IMG/VR virus record: IMGVR_UViG_3300042484_000592
Coordinates: 1-21,618 of that record
Source: a virus
Strand: one strand, 5' to 3'
Length of the DNA stretch: 21,618 nt
Below, in pieces: positions 14,126 to 21,618 of this stretch. The position numbers were made by a program, and so were the translations under genes. Under the pieces are notes generated by a model. That model made no database searches. It was given only the letters and a program-made list of their open reading frames with translations, and was not told the origin of the DNA. Positions within the stretch are counted from its first letter, which is position 1. Each line of letters opens with the position of its first letter.

Positions 14126-15538
14126 TTACAGAGCGTAACGATCACTCATTACAGTCTTAAGCATGATGCCTTCTGGAGTGAATTGATCCAAATCAGCGGC
14201 TAGCAAGCTAGTCATGATTGATGGACTGAATCCACTTACCAATGCGGCACCACTCTTGTCTGCCTTAACAGGTACGTTGTCTGAACTGTTTAGGTTCCAG
14301 AAAACAATCTGTGGCACAGTGTAACCTGCATCTGCGAACTTGCGTTCGATCATTTGCATTGCTGTGTCGTCGTAACGAGCACATTGGTTAAACTGCATGT
14401 CTGACAAGATTAGCAACATGCCTGGCATGTCGCTAGCTGGTACTGAACCCTTAACTGCAACGCTTAGGATCTTGTCCATAGCGGCATGCAAGTTAGTGCT
14501 CATGTTCCAATCACTCTTGCTCATTTGAGCAACCTTGTCAACAATGTTACCCTTTAGAGTAACAAGTTGTGGCTTGTCTGAGAAAGTCAAGAAAGTGTCC
14601 TTGAACACACCCTTGTTCTTGTCTGCTAGGTACAAGCCCAAGCTGATTGAAACATCCATGCAAGTTACATTAGTGTTCTTTCCTGCTGGGCAAGACATAG
14701 AACCACTAACGTCTACAATTGGCATGATGCTAGCATCACCCACGTAGTTTGGCAAGCTGTCCCATTGTGCGATCACATGGTCAGTTTCTGTCTTGTCAAA
14801 AGTTGCACGGTAGCTACCGATCACTCCCTTCAACACGTCATGTGGGAAGATTGCGCTGGCGTTAACCTTAACAGTCTTATCACCACTTACCAACTTGGCA
14901 ACATACTCAGCAAACGCTGGGCTGTGACGGTTGAATGCCTTCTTGTATAGTCGAGACGCTACAGAAGGAACGTGACTGAAGTTGATGTTGTCCCAATCTC
15001 CTGCACACATTTGGGTTTCAACAACCTTTGTAAGAGCCACAAGACTCTTACGGTATTGCTTTGGAGTCATGCCAAAGAAGGCACGAACTTCAGCGGCAAT
15101 TTGACCCTTACGTGGAGTCCACTTTGCAGCCAAACCGTTCTTAGCACGAAGGGCATCGCCCAACATACTATAAGCGGCTGACTTCAATACTGGTGATTGG
15201 AAGACAAAGATGTCATCCCAACGACCAACTTCTGGAACCTTGCGAAGCAAAGCCAAAGCGGCGTCTGGGTCACGCTTTTCTAGATGTACTAGAATGTCGC
15301 GGAACAATTGACGTTCACCTGCACCACCTCGGACATCACGTGCCCATTGTGCGATGCGTAGTGCAACGTCTGAGTTTTCCACATAAGCGGCTGTGAAGTC
15401 GCCTGTGATGTCCTTACCACGGCTTGCGCCGATTTTGTAGAACAAGTCAACACAAGACGAAGCTGTTGACTTACGAGCCTTCATACCGTTTGCAGTACGG
15501 GCTTCTTGATTTGCGATTGCGTTTACAAATGCGTTCAT
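14126..15538 (-). CDS. Ro60-like protein: TROVE/DUF2828-type helical domain plus vWA
   Basis: 470 residues. The N-terminal 260 residues are helical with the signature RDVRGGAGERQLFRDILVHL at about 67-86 and VPEVGRWDDIF at about 101-111, which fits DUF2828 (PF11443) and the related TROVE helical-repeat domain. The C-terminal domain is a von Willebrand A fold with an intact MIDAS: DVSGS (Asp276, Ser278, Ser280), Thr348 and LSD with Asp380. The same two-part architecture defines Ro60/Rsr proteins, ring-shaped binders of Y RNAs and misfolded RNAs. RNA binding here is inference. AAAGG lies eight bases before the ATG and directly abuts a pseudoknot element in the leader. Its base composition looks less AT-rich than its neighbours. 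Confidence 0.88.
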   Translation of the reverse strand: MNAFVNAIANQEARTANGMKARKSTASSCVDLFYKIGASRGKDITGDFTAAYVENSDVALRIAQWARDVRGGAGERQLFRDILVHLEKRDPDAALALLRKVPEVGRWDDIFVFQSPVLKSAAYSMLGDALRAKNGLAAKWTPRKGQIAAEVRAFFGMTPKQYRKSLVALTKVVETQMCAGDWDNINFSHVPSVASRLYKKAFNRHSPAFAEYVAKLVSGDKTVKVNASAIFPHDVLKGVIGSYRATFDKTETDHVIAQWDSLPNYVGDASIMPIVDVSGSMSCPAGKNTNVTCMDVSISLGLYLADKNKGVFKDTFLTFSDKPQLVTLKGNIVDKVAQMSKSDWNMSTNLHAAMDKILSVAVKGSVPASDMPGMLLILSDMQFNQCARYDDTAMQMIERKFADAGYTVPQIVFWNLNSSDNVPVKADKSGAALVSGFSPSIMTSLLAADLDQFTPEGIMLKTVMSDRYAL

Positions 15539-15550
15539 TTTAATTACCTT

Positions 15551-15610
15551 TACAGAATGTATTTTTTTCTCTATGCTTGAAAATTTAAAGTTGCTGTTAA
15601 CATTCTAAAA
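15551..15610 (-). ncRNA. Pseudoknot element copy 3, abutting the vWA ribosome site
   Basis: Minus strand starts TTTTAGAATGTTAACAGCAA and ends ACATTCTGTAAAGG. P1 pairs AGAATGT with ACATTCT; ACAG near the 5' side can pair with CTGT at the 3' side (H-type pseudoknot), sharing one or two bases with P1. An inner TTTTC/GAAAA hairpin fills the loop. The 3' strand runs into the AAAGG ribosome site of the vWA gene, so this copy could control its translation. Confidence 0.65.
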
Positions 15611-15615
15611 CTTTA

Positions 15616-15847
15616 AACAGGATGATCGTGCCAATTTGTTTATTATTCTGGTCTGGCCAATTACAGCACCCAGACCCTAGCAACATTCATGTTGCCTAGT
15701 TTGTGTTCTTCTGTACAAACATCATATTCCAGATTCTCTGGACCTATCTATTCCATCAGTGTCTATTTCTAGAAAACATTTCTGCCTGTCCTCCGACCAC
15801 CTTCTATAGCATTAAGATGTAGTTTAAATTGCTGTAGTCATCCAAAA
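15616..15847 (-). ncRNA. Pseudoknot element copy 4, expanded with internal hairpins
   Basis: Minus strand begins TTTTGGATGACTACAGCAA (15829-15847) and ends TCATCCTGTTT (15616-15626). P1 is GGATGA/TCATCC and P2 ACAG/CTGT. The about 200-base interior holds several good hairpins (plus-strand GGTCTGG/CCAGACC, CTAGCAACAT/ATGTTGCCTAG, CCAGA/TCTGG, AGAAA/TTTCT). No reading frame of note. A novel structured RNA is the best reading. Confidence 0.6.
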
Positions 15848-15848
15848 C

Positions 15849-16020
15849 TAACAGGATCGTTGTTGACTGCTTTTATTTTACACAGGCCATCACTCTGTGC
15901 TCGTTAGTCTTGTTTCAATAGACCCCTTCAACGCTCGGTGTTTTTACGCACTCCGCTCCAGTTTCTACCACAGTGTCTAACAGTTCATAGTATATGAATG
16001 TTGCTGTACCGATCCTAAAA
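15849..16020 (-). ncRNA. Pseudoknot element copy 5, expanded with internal hairpins
   Basis: Minus strand begins TTTTAGGATCGGTACAGCAA (16001-16020) and ends CGATCCTGTTAG. P1 is GGATCG/CGATCC, P2 ACAG/CTGT. Interior hairpins include plus-strand CACAG/CTGTG (inside GACT/AGTC), GTCT/AGAC and TTCAT/ATGAA. It is the first element behind the promoter at 16051-16079. Confidence 0.6.
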
Positions 16021-16050
16021 CTCTTTAGCATTGTTACTTGCTATGTGTCT

Positions 16051-16079
16051 ATTATAGTACATTTACTACGACTTGTCTA
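16051..16079 (-). promoter_or_regulatory. Promoter for the structured-RNA leader and vWA gene
   Basis: Minus strand TAGACA (16074-16079), 17 bases, TATAAT (16051-16056), within a gene-free stretch. Predicted start about 16044, giving a leader of roughly 500 bases that contains three pseudoknot elements before the vWA ATG. Between this promoter and the tRNA-Val end (16080-16109) I see nothing. Confidence 0.8.
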
Positions 16080-16109
16080 TTCATTTTGGTTAAATGAAAT
16101 AAACTATTT

Positions 16110-17151: not shown

Positions 17152-17227
17152 TGGTTGCGGGACTTGGATTTGAACCAAGGATGGCAAAGGCTTATGAGAC
17201 CTCGCTGGTGACCGGACCCTTCCCGCG
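17152..17227 (-). tRNA. tRNA-Met(CAT), initiator type
   Basis: Acceptor CGCGGGA/TCCCGCA leaves C1 and A72 unpaired, the hallmark of bacterial initiator tRNA, and the T loop TTCAAAT equals that of E. coli tRNA-fMet. Anticodon loop CTCATAA. The anticodon stem has G29-C41 and G30-C40 but a T31-G39 pair, so only two of the three initiator G-C pairs are present. The D arm is odd (GGT/ACC with a short CCGGTC loop, and A in place of U8). Encoded CCA. Initiation function is inferred from C1-A72. Confidence 0.88.
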
Positions 17228-17230
17228 ATA

Positions 17231-17367
17231 ACTTTATAGGTGCTCTCTGTCCGAATCGAACGGAATTGTCTAACTCCTTATCTTCCTAGGCCTTTCACGT
17301 ACGGGTCGACTTATACGCTTCTTATCGGTTGCTAGTGTAGTTAAACTTCAGAAAGCATTTATAAAGT
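17231..17367 (-). ncRNA. Structured spacer RNA with tRNA-like 3' half
   Basis: Between tRNA-fMet and tRNA-Asn. Ends pair over 17 positions: minus-strand ACTTTATA-AA-TGCTTTCTG with CAGAGAGCA-CC-TATAAAGT (one G-U, one 2x2 internal loop). Directly inside the 3' arm is TCCG-TTCGATT-CGGA, a perfect T-arm mimic, and the arm reads ...GAGAGCACC. No anticodon arm is evident in the about 70-base interior. It resembles half a tRNA on an extended acceptor helix. Function unknown. Confidence 0.6.
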
Positions 17368-17570
17368 GTCCGGCTACTCACACCACATGAGCCCCGGACT
17401 GAGCGGTTACTCTGTCCATAACATTTATTCTTATGGGAAGGTGTTAAACCTCACCTAATGCGTCTCCGGATTCCCTACACAGGATCGGAAGGCCATTGCA
17501 CTACAAACCTAGCACTCTTTATGGTGACTGCCCCACCCCCTTTGTATAACGGACAAGGGCGTCCGGGGTC
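17368..17570 (-). ncRNA. Multi-hairpin spacer downstream of tRNA-Asn
   Basis: No gene. Plus-strand helices: GTCCGG/CCGGAC (17368-17399) enclosing CTCA/TGAG, CCATAA/TTATGG (17416-17436), AGGTG/CACCT (17439-17456), and a GC-rich hairpin with CCCTTTGT/ACAAGGG at 17526-17570 next to tRNA-Asn. There is no T-run, so a terminator is unlikely. It could be one RNA with the 17231-17367 element. Confidence 0.5.
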
Positions 17571-18173: not shown

Positions 18174-18851
18174 TTAAACTAACTTGCCAAAAGCCCATAC
18201 ACGTTCTTTGCACCACCAGCATTCGCCGCAATGTGCATCTAACACTGTAAGACTTTCGCATGACCTTGTCATTGAATATAGATATTCAATGTCTAAAACT
18301 TTGTATAGTTTTGCTATTTCTTTTTTGTTTATATTGATAAACGGAGAAGCCACTGCTAATGGTAATTTAAAACCTTTAGCCTTTGGTCCAAATATATCAA
18401 TTAATTCTTCATCCTTAGACCAATAAGTTTTCCTTACCAACTCGCTATCAATGCCGCCTGCTGCCGCCACATTTTGTGTATCAAATTCAACGATCTCATC
18501 TTTAGGCGGAGGTCTTGTAAATCCAAAATACATTACATCAAGTTTTAATGTATCTACTACTAATTCTTTTTGGAATGTAGTAGTTAATTGTTTATTTTCA
18601 GCCCAGTGGGTTATAAAATATACATTTTTTTTGCCAGTTAGCTTCATAATTTCGTTTGTAATTTTCAAAGCATTCACTGGCTCTTGATTATGAGTCAAAC
18701 TGTTTCCACAAGAAATTATAGTGATTGGGGCAGTTATGTTCTTCATAATAATATAAAGCAATAACGCACTATCGACTCCACCAGATACAGCAACACCGAT
18801 ATTGCCGTTGTGTAGGTCAATATTCAAATTGTCAATTGTTATTGTTTTCAT
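18174..18851 (-). CDS. PP-loop ATPase, QueC-like
   Basis: 225 residues. The PP-loop SGGVDSALL begins at Ser23 and binds the pyrophosphate of ATP. At the C-terminus Cys198, Cys208, Cys211 and Cys214 in RSCES...HCGECWWCKER form a zinc site like that of QueC (7-cyano-7-deazaguanine synthase), and PFININKKEIAKLY resembles the QueC region before it. QueC makes preQ0, precursor of queuosine in tRNA and of deazaguanine DNA modification in some phages. The middle differs from QueC, so another PP-loop enzyme acting on tRNA (TilS or thiouridine type) remains possible. It lies inside the tRNA array behind tRNA-Glu. Confidence 0.75.
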   Translation of the reverse strand: MKTITIDNLNIDLHNGNIGVAVSGGVDSALLLYIIMKNITAPITIISCGNSLTHNQEPVNALKITNEIMKLTGKKNVYFITHWAENKQLTTTFQKELVVDTLKLDVMYFGFTRPPPKDEIVEFDTQNVAAAGGIDSELVRKTYWSKDEELIDIFGPKAKGFKLPLAVASPFININKKEIAKLYKVLDIEYLYSMTRSCESLTVLDAHCGECWWCKERVWAFGKLV

Positions 18852-19521: not shown

Positions 19522-19596
19522 TGGTCCCGTTAACAGGAATCGAACCTGTATCTAATTCTTAGGAGGAACTTGTTCTATCCATTGAACTATAACGAG
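19522..19596 (-). tRNA. tRNA-Arg(CCT)
   Basis: Acceptor CTCGTTA/TAACGGG, anticodon arm AGTTC-CTCCTAA-GAATT, T loop TTCGATT, encoded CCA. Reads AGG. Its first base is the last base of the 17-base inverted repeat that closes the adjacent spacer. Confidence 0.95.
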
Positions 19597-19842
19597 TATT
19601 AGTAAAGGGCTTGCAGAGTTTTGGTCAACGATAGTTAAACTTGGCTACCCGCGGCTTACAGTCGCGCTCTTTTTGTCTAGCAAACATGGAGTATCATTCG
19701 CTTTCAGAAGTCGCCCATGCTGTAAGCACTAACTTCTAGTCCAGCTGGAGTGCAGTCTATAACTGCTAGATACAACAGGCTTCCGACCCATTATAACTTC
19801 TCTTACGAAACTCCTAGATACTTTAAGCCCTTTACTAATACT
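19597..19842 (-). ncRNA. Large structured RNA closed by a perfect 16-17 bp helix
   Basis: Fills exactly the space between tRNA-Leu(TAA) CCA and tRNA-Arg(CCT). Plus-strand GTATTAGTAAAGGGCTT (19596-19612) is the perfect reverse complement of AAGCCCTTTACTAATAC (19825-19841). Interior helices include AGAAGT/ACTTCT (19706-19737) around TGC/GCA, GCAGT/ACTGC (19752-19766), CGCG/CGCG (19650-19666) and the palindrome TCCAGCTGGA. No open frame with a ribosome site. Flanking tRNA processing would release it with paired ends. I match it to no known family. Confidence 0.78.
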
Positions 19843-19927
19843 TGGTGCGACTGGCCGGAATCGAACCGGCACGCCCTTCGGCGAGAGATTTTAAGTCTCT
19901 TGTGTCTACCTATTTCACCACAGTCGC
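19843..19927 (-). tRNA. tRNA-Leu(TAA)
   Basis: 85 nucleotides with a class II variable arm (CGCC-GAA-GGGCG), acceptor GCGACTG/CAGTCGC, anticodon arm AGAGA-CTTAAAA-TCTCT, T loop TTCGATT, encoded CCA. Reads UUA. First gene behind the promoter at 19945-19973. Confidence 0.96.
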
Positions 19928-20146: not shown

Positions 20147-20222
20147 TGGGGTGCCTTATGGGGAACGATCCCATACTACCGATTTCACAGAACGGGGTGC
20201 AGACCACTACACTAAAGACACC
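20147..20222 (-). tRNA. tRNA-His(GTG) with inverted T-loop pair
   Basis: G-1 opposite C73 as required for His, acceptor GTGTCTT/AAGGCAC, anticodon loop CTGTGAA, encoded CCA. The T loop is ATCGTTC instead of TTCGAxx, so T54-A58 is replaced by A54-T58. Reads CAC and CAU. Confidence 0.92.
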
Positions 20223-20445
20223 ATAGATTGAATTTGTAAGTAGTTGCGTCCCTCATATCGCAACCATTTTCCCTTGTAATAAAGCCGGCAGGGTCAAGAT
20301 ACGTCACTTGGGATTCATCCAGCGTGGTAACCATGCTACACCGATCTTCCGATCAGCCGGGAGTCGAACCCGCTTGCCTTCTACTACTCAGTACCTTCGA
20401 AGAATACCGAACAGCGTGACTTCACTTGCTGACACTTACAAAACT
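20223..20445 (-). ncRNA. Structured spacer RNA with tRNA-like domain
   Basis: Between tRNA-Arg(TCT) and tRNA-His. Plus-strand TTTGTAAGT (20233-20241) pairs with ACTTACAAA (20434-20442). Minus-strand 20434-20352 looks like a degenerate tRNA: a partial acceptor TGTCAGC/GCTGATC, GTATT-CTTCGAA-GGTAC resembling an Arg(TCG) anticodon arm, and T arm CGGG-TTCGACT-CCCG, but a stunted D hairpin (GTG-AAGT-CAC). A further hairpin is GTTGCG/CGCAAC (20243-20264). Either a decayed tRNA plus spacer or a stable RNA containing a tRNA mimic. Confidence 0.55.
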
Positions 20446-20599: not shown

Positions 20600-20603
20600 A
20601 CAA

Positions 20604-20673
20604 TAAAACAGGATAGCATTTTTGGCTTTTTTTCAAGAAAAGATTTTTAATGTTTGCTGTTGCTATCCTAAAC
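20604..20673 (-). ncRNA. Pseudoknot element copy 1, behind tRNA-Gly(GCC)
   Basis: Minus strand starts right after the tRNA CCA: GTTTAGGATAGCAACAGCAA ... TGCTATCCTGTTTTATT. P1 is GGATAGCA/TGCTATCC (eight pairs), P2 AACAG/CTGTT, with an inner CTTTT/AAAAG hairpin. Shares the GGATnnnnACAGCAA core with the copies at 15551-16020. The U-rich tail allows an alternative reading as an attenuator. Confidence 0.68.
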
Positions 20674-21153: not shown

Positions 21154-21239
21154 ATATAGAAACACACTTAGCACTTTTGCCAACGCTGGTGTGCAGTCCT
21201 TACAACCTAAATTATATTTAGGCTAAATGTGTTTTTATA
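21154..21239 (-). ncRNA. Spacer RNA closed by an 18-21 bp helix
   Basis: Between tRNA-Lys(TTT) CCA and tRNA-Met 5' end. Plus-strand 21154-21172 (ATATAGAAACACACTTAGC) pairs with 21222-21240 (GCTAAATGTGTTTTTATAT) with one mismatch and one G-U. Inside are the hairpins CTAAAT/ATTTAG and CCA-GCGT-TGG. A double-stranded processing stem or a small stable RNA. Confidence 0.72.
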
Positions 21240-21464: not shown

Positions 21465-21503
21465 TGAGCTTCGCTTCATTGTGTTCTCCTTGAACGTTAT
21501 TAA
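21392..21503 (-). other. Gene-free spacer with hairpin and tiny start-stop frame
   Basis: Minus strand AAGGAG-AACACA-ATG at 21479 opens an eight-codon frame (MKRSSAKL) ending at TAG 21453. Downstream is a hairpin CCTTAGA/TCTAAGG (extended by GTGTC/GGCAC) with an 11-base loop. No larger gene. The tiny frame could be a leader peptide or chance. Confidence 0.4.
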
Positions 21504-21568
21504 AAAAACAGGATGCTTATTTTTCAATTAAAAGTTGAATTTTTGAATTTGCTGTTCGCATCCTAAAA
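21504..21568 (-). ncRNA. Pseudoknot element copy 2, behind tRNA-Phe
   Basis: Minus strand TTTTAGGATGCGAACAGCAA ... GCATCCTGTTTTTTT. P1 GGATGC/GCATCC, P2 AACAG/CTGTT, inner hairpin TTCAA/TTGAA. It follows the CCA of tRNA-Phe without a gap, as copy 1 follows tRNA-Gly. Confidence 0.68.
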
Positions 21569-21618
21569 TGGTACACCCTGTTGGAATCGAACCAACTTCA
21601 ACGGTTCTTCAGACCGCC
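21569..21618 (-). tRNA. tRNA-Phe(GAA), 5' half beyond the window
   Basis: Encoded CCA, A73, T loop TTCGATT, anticodon arm GCGGT-CTGAAGA-ACCGT (one weak pair). The 5' half is cut off. Same anticodon as the tRNA at 20066-20141 but different body sequence. Confidence 0.85.

Follow-up and report, generated by a model that had tools for sequence, protein, structure and literature searches.

What occupies the gap between two tRNA genes in the tRNA cluster of an uncultured phage? The window we analysed, an IMG/VR record of 21,618 bases, yields 28 ARAGORN calls, 27 of them in the tRNA cluster, and also encodes a QueC-like protein, a DNA ligase and a Ro-like 'RNA-binding protein'. On the minus strand, tRNA-Leu(UAA) (19843-19927; ARAGORN tRNA-Leu(taa)), which encodes its own CCA, is followed downstream by tRNA-Arg(CCU) (19522-19596; ARAGORN tRNA-Arg(cct)), and these ARAGORN borders therefore place the spacer between them exactly at 19597-19842 (246 nt, minus strand). 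A sequence-only reading had proposed that a structured RNA with base-paired ends and internal hairpins precisely fills this spacer. Comparative analysis points to a structured non-coding RNA here, with a likely mature span of about 19597-19840, and covariation among its relatives makes the existence of a new structured RNA family very secure.

An inverted repeat closes the spacer

The spacer is closed by a perfect inverted repeat, as first noticed, although the repeat spans 18 nt (19595-19612 with 19825-19842) rather than 17. On one side the repeat runs across the tRNA border, its outermost two positions being the first two nucleotides of tRNA-Arg; 16 bp thus lie within the spacer. No perfect repeat of at least 16 nt within 300 nt arose in any of 100 first-order Markov simulations of the window. 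On the tRNA strand the spacer folds at -73.2 kcal/mol (z -2.43), an energy reached by 1 of 200 shuffles; the opposite strand gives z -3.36. Single-sequence folding energy is thus only moderately better than that of shuffles, and the comparative evidence for a structured RNA is far stronger.

A family of forty RNAs in phage contigs

Relatives of the Ro-like protein at 86-100% identity pointed to sister contigs of up to 356 kb, and a search of these with the spacer returned full-length homologues at 73-75% identity. Scanning all viral contigs for a conserved motif gave further members, and a profile search gave 40 non-redundant ones (below 97% identity), all in IMG/VR phage contigs, where they sit within tRNA clusters on the same strand as the tRNAs. 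A covariance model, R1, built from 34 of the 40, separates members (at least 100 bits) from noise (at most 15 bits), assigns 228 bits to the copy in this window and scores members outside its training set (L171, L184, L185 and L191) at 102-173 bits. There is one copy per contig, the 345- and 356-kb contigs included. Comparison with related phages therefore finds the RNA present and paired, refuting the notion that it might be absent or unpaired in close relatives.

Members are 230-251 nt long, differ by insertions and deletions of lengths not divisible by three, and share no long open reading frame. Together these observations argue against protein coding, a reading we rejected, and they bear out the original impression that the spacer contains no gene. 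Searches further afield added no members. INPHARED gave no match to the family; a DNA motif search of GTDB contigs gave five matches, none supported by the covariance model; and an exact search of viral contigs with the 17-base arm gave five chance matches, all outside tRNA clusters. The relatives of the QueC-like protein lie in other phages, in which no copy of the RNA scored above noise. We found no description of the family in a partial coverage of the literature.

Covariation defines a compact fold with a pseudoknot

We derived a consensus structure from an alignment (A2) of 34 sequences, aligned from sequence alone, extending the RNAalifold consensus by a covariation scan of all columns and by checks of individual columns. 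Compensatory double changes occur in 48 of the 54 proposed pairs and 90.1% of cells are paired, compared with 38-46% for control structures in which the partners were slid. The proposed structure has a covariation score of 0.588; the slid structures score 0.096-0.148, and shuffles average 0.236. Covariation in this same alignment helped to select helices P2 and P8 and the kissing pair, a mild circularity that leaves their counts not fully independent. Paired columns contain 154 G-U cells but 41 A-C cells, an excess which places the RNA on the tRNA strand. The predicted fold is kept across about 40 related phage sequences, whereas the letters are not.

The features of this fold, all on the minus strand, can be followed from the 5' end. 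The closing stem P1 (5' arm 19826-19840; 3' arm 19597-19611, flush with tRNA-Arg) combines the inverted repeat with covariation, 15 of its 15 pairs being compensatory and 95.2% of cells paired. Inside it, the long-range helix P2 (19816-19822 with 19690-19696; double changes in six of seven pairs) encloses hairpins P3 to P6. P3 (19800-19809) has a GNRA-type loop and three of three pairs that covary; P4 (19775-19791) has an invariant GGAA loop, also GNRA-type, on a stem in which all six pairs covary; and P5 (19752-19766) has an AU-rich pentaloop, with covariation at five of five pairs and 98.2% of cells paired. The apex of P6 (19718-19728) presents the loop CUUACAG (19720-19726), which pairs with the loop CUGUAAG (19655-19661) of hairpin P7 (19650-19666; four of four stem pairs covary). 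This L6-L7 kissing-loop pseudoknot comprises 7 bp, with 94% of cells paired and double changes in four of seven pairs. P7 is in turn surrounded by P8 (19642-19682; 19678-19682 with 19642-19647), where three of five pairs show double changes. An extra helix just inside P2, which can be made out by eye and in folds of single sequences, lies outside the 54-pair count.

Two unpaired or largely invariant strings stand out in the alignment of 34 sequences. One is a strictly conserved stretch with CCAUGUU at its start, running through GCUAGACAAAAAGAGC (19666-19689), whose columns are mostly invariant; the other is the conserved unpaired GACCAAAAC near the 3' end (19618-19626). Covariation in relatives thus upholds the structured RNA with paired ends and internal hairpins that a single sequence had suggested.

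The RNA lies beside tRNAs that differ between phages

Location inside a tRNA cluster, first noted for this window, proves common to the family. All tRNAs at member loci are on the strand of the RNA. Downstream sequence is available for 39 members, and in 33 of these a tRNA starts 0-8 nt past the end of the profile. This tRNA is most often tRNA-Gly(GCC) and otherwise Cys, Arg, Thr or Ile, while the upstream neighbour varies among Leu, Met, Trp, His and Pro tRNAs or is an open reading frame. The precise filling of the spacer holds for this window but not for some relatives, in which there are short linkers or an adjoining open reading frame. For a minority of members (L106, L096 and L180) an open reading frame, not a tRNA, comes next downstream, which means that tRNA processing cannot account for the 3' end throughout the family. 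That the adjacent tRNAs and genes differ among members argues against a cis element, and we set aside a cis-switch reading.

RNase P cleavage and tRNA 3' maturation are established tRNA biology, applied here by inference. It is plausible that processing of the flanking tRNAs frees the RNA, and we infer that its context is best explained by co-transcription with tRNAs, RNase P setting the 3' end.

Further conserved elements in the window

The minus strand of the window carries several other elements. Directly upstream of the Ro-like gene lies a non-coding stretch of 555 nt (15555-16109) with 86% mean column identity over 15 relatives and matches in sister contigs down to E 1e-136. It was not found in the tested contigs that lack the Ro-like gene, and is a candidate Ro-partner RNA or regulatory leader. 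Another conserved non-coding RNA candidate, of about 210 nt (17359-17567), shows compensatory changes in 20 of 43 predicted pairs and also occurs in a more distant phage contig (L009, 13068-13276). A third, of 224 nt (20222-20445), extends from tRNA-Arg(UCU) to tRNA-His with compensatory changes in 12 of 34 predicted pairs; within it a T-arm-like segment precedes acceptor- and D-arm-like segments. A second tRNA-tRNA spacer, from tRNA-Lys to tRNA-Met (21154-21239), has a 23-nt, 91% inverted repeat abutting both tRNAs, and is kept in relatives. Four copies of a recurring element, TTTTAGGATnnnnACAGCAA...ATCCTGTTTT, lie in the tRNA region (21500-21571, 20600-20673, 15850-16021 and 15555-15612) and look like a family of short structured elements.

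A tRNA with a CAU anticodon (17152-17228), initiator or Ile2-like, was apparently missed by ARAGORN. A tRNA-like element of about 120 nt (17239-17358), with a seven-pair acceptor (GCUUUCU/AGAGAGC) and a T-arm with a large insert, also received no ARAGORN call; it may be a divergent tRNA or one that contains an intron, and the cluster yielded no tRNA-Tyr. The QueC-like gene (18174-18851, minus strand) sits within the cluster, flanked by tRNA-Leu(UAG) and tRNA-Glu.

A probable trans-acting RNA and its alternatives

We consider it probable that these RNAs form a new family of independent, trans-acting structured RNAs belonging to a group of large phages rich in tRNAs, and that they act most likely as a stable RNP or an RNA scaffold. 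In this scheme the RNA would be transcribed together with the tRNAs; RNase P, cutting at the downstream tRNA (here tRNA-Arg(CCU)), would generate its 3' end; in members whose upstream tRNA directly adjoins the RNA, maturation of that tRNA's 3' end would release the other. The long closing stem would shield the ends, and the compact fold with its conserved unpaired strings could bind a protein, a second RNA or more copies of itself. During infection the product would then act as a stable particle, and neither as a message nor as a cis switch.

A bolder proposal, which we regard as unlikely, is that the RNA represents a new class of phage RNA machine, built on kissing loops and self-assembling or catalytic, and is one of at least four undescribed structured RNAs that large phages encode with nearly complete tRNA sets. 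Also unlikely, as an alternative to a trans-acting RNP or scaffold, is that the RNA is catalytic or forms an RNA-only multimer in which the kissing loop joins separate molecules. Conserved kissing loops, GNRA-type loops and invariant unpaired strings would suit such a role, and two points keep it in play: the L6-L7 contact could form between molecules, and ROOL and GOLLD, which occur near phage tRNA islands, form cages via kissing loops (PMC12286853). Against it, L6 and L7 are able to pair within one molecule, and Rfam reveals no known ribozyme core. The RNA is also much shorter than ROOL or GOLLD.

The Ro-like protein raises the prospect of a Y-RNA-like partnership, which we judge distinctly improbable. 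Its gene (14126-15538) lies about 4 kb from the RNA; its product contains DUF2828 and DUF7788 and matches phrog_850, 'RNA-binding protein'. The AlphaFold model is poor (mean pLDDT 50) and searches of solved structures returned no Ro relative, so the Ro assignment rests on PHROGs and Pfam family names and on phage annotation. In favour of a partnership are the match to an RNA-binding family, base-paired ends as in Y RNAs, the joint presence of RNA and gene on many contigs, and the occurrence of TROVE proteins in a small subset of jumbo phages (PMC7824862). What disfavours it is G037, a contig of 265,680 bases not established as a complete genome, which has the RNA in its interior (177119-177375) and no Ro-like gene detectable by profile or tblastn. 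The 133-kb contig G027 likewise carries the RNA with no detectable Ro-like gene. Conversely, six isolate phages with the Ro-like gene are without the RNA. The Ro-bearing contigs that lack it appear, from their contig ranges, to be truncated upstream of the Ro gene. Moreover, it is the 555-nt stretch that tracks the Ro-like gene, and Rfam gives no Y-RNA match. Taken together, these results favour an independent trans-acting RNA.

Less probable still is a mere processing or spacing device, its stem a target for RNase III or RNase E or a means of joining tRNAs, and the released piece waste. The stem adjoins both tRNAs in this window and the second spacer is likewise closed by an inverted repeat; yet a stem alone would suffice for such a purpose, whereas the internal helices, loops and pseudoknot are just as conserved, and the flanking tRNAs vary among phages. 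Finally, a chance inverted repeat or assembly artefact, for which the modest single-sequence z-score might speak, is next to impossible given the simulations, and is already refuted by compensatory changes in 40 relatives on independent contigs.

Comparison with known phage and bacterial RNAs

Over the whole window only tRNAs reach Rfam gathering scores. The Rfam/Infernal search proposed for the spacer yields no family, with two chance matches at E≤10; a permuted-tmRNA match of 17.7 bits rests partly on tRNA-Leu. The covariance models for tmRNA, RNase P RNA, 6S and group I introns are not matched, in agreement with the lack of their hallmarks noted by eye. For ROOL nothing reaches gathering, and even at E≤10 neither the spacer nor the copy in contig L102 gives a match; the GOLLD model matches neither of these two sequences. 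At the sensitivity of Rfam, ROOL, GOLLD, tmRNA, RNase P and 6S are therefore excluded as homologues.

Bacterial Y RNA (YrlA) shares base-paired 5' and 3' ends (P1 here) with this RNA, and a Ro-like gene lies near the RNA in many of these phages. Unlike an RNA that accompanies a Ro60/TROVE protein, though, the present family is not tied to that gene. Typical Y RNAs are also about half as long.

Phage tRNA islands hold structured RNAs of unknown purpose, among them T4 RNAs C and D, GOLLD and ROOL. The family described here adds a compact, well-conserved RNA with a testable secondary structure and pseudoknot, of a size suited to chemical probing or cryo-EM, and several distinct conserved RNAs can share one tRNA region; the question of what phage RNAs do thereby becomes more tractable.

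The resemblance to T4 stable RNAs C and D raised at the outset holds for position but not for the model. The T4 record annotates rnaC and rnaD beside tRNA-Arg, as small stable RNAs adjoining tRNA genes in a phage tRNA cluster, just as here, but they measure 139 and 119 nt against about 245 nt, and R1, run over the complete T4 record, scores no better than chance, at places away from rnaC/rnaD (70908-71171). Like our RNA, ROOL is phage-borne and near tRNAs, although it is much larger, and GOLLD often exceeds 800 nt, compared with about 245 nt. ROOL is a structured phage non-coding RNA often found near tRNA islands, GOLLD a phage and prophage RNA of similar location; both have kissing loops, through which they form RNA-only cages (PMC12286853). 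We judge the RNA to be a new family of the same broad kind as GOLLD, ROOL and T4 RNAs C and D.
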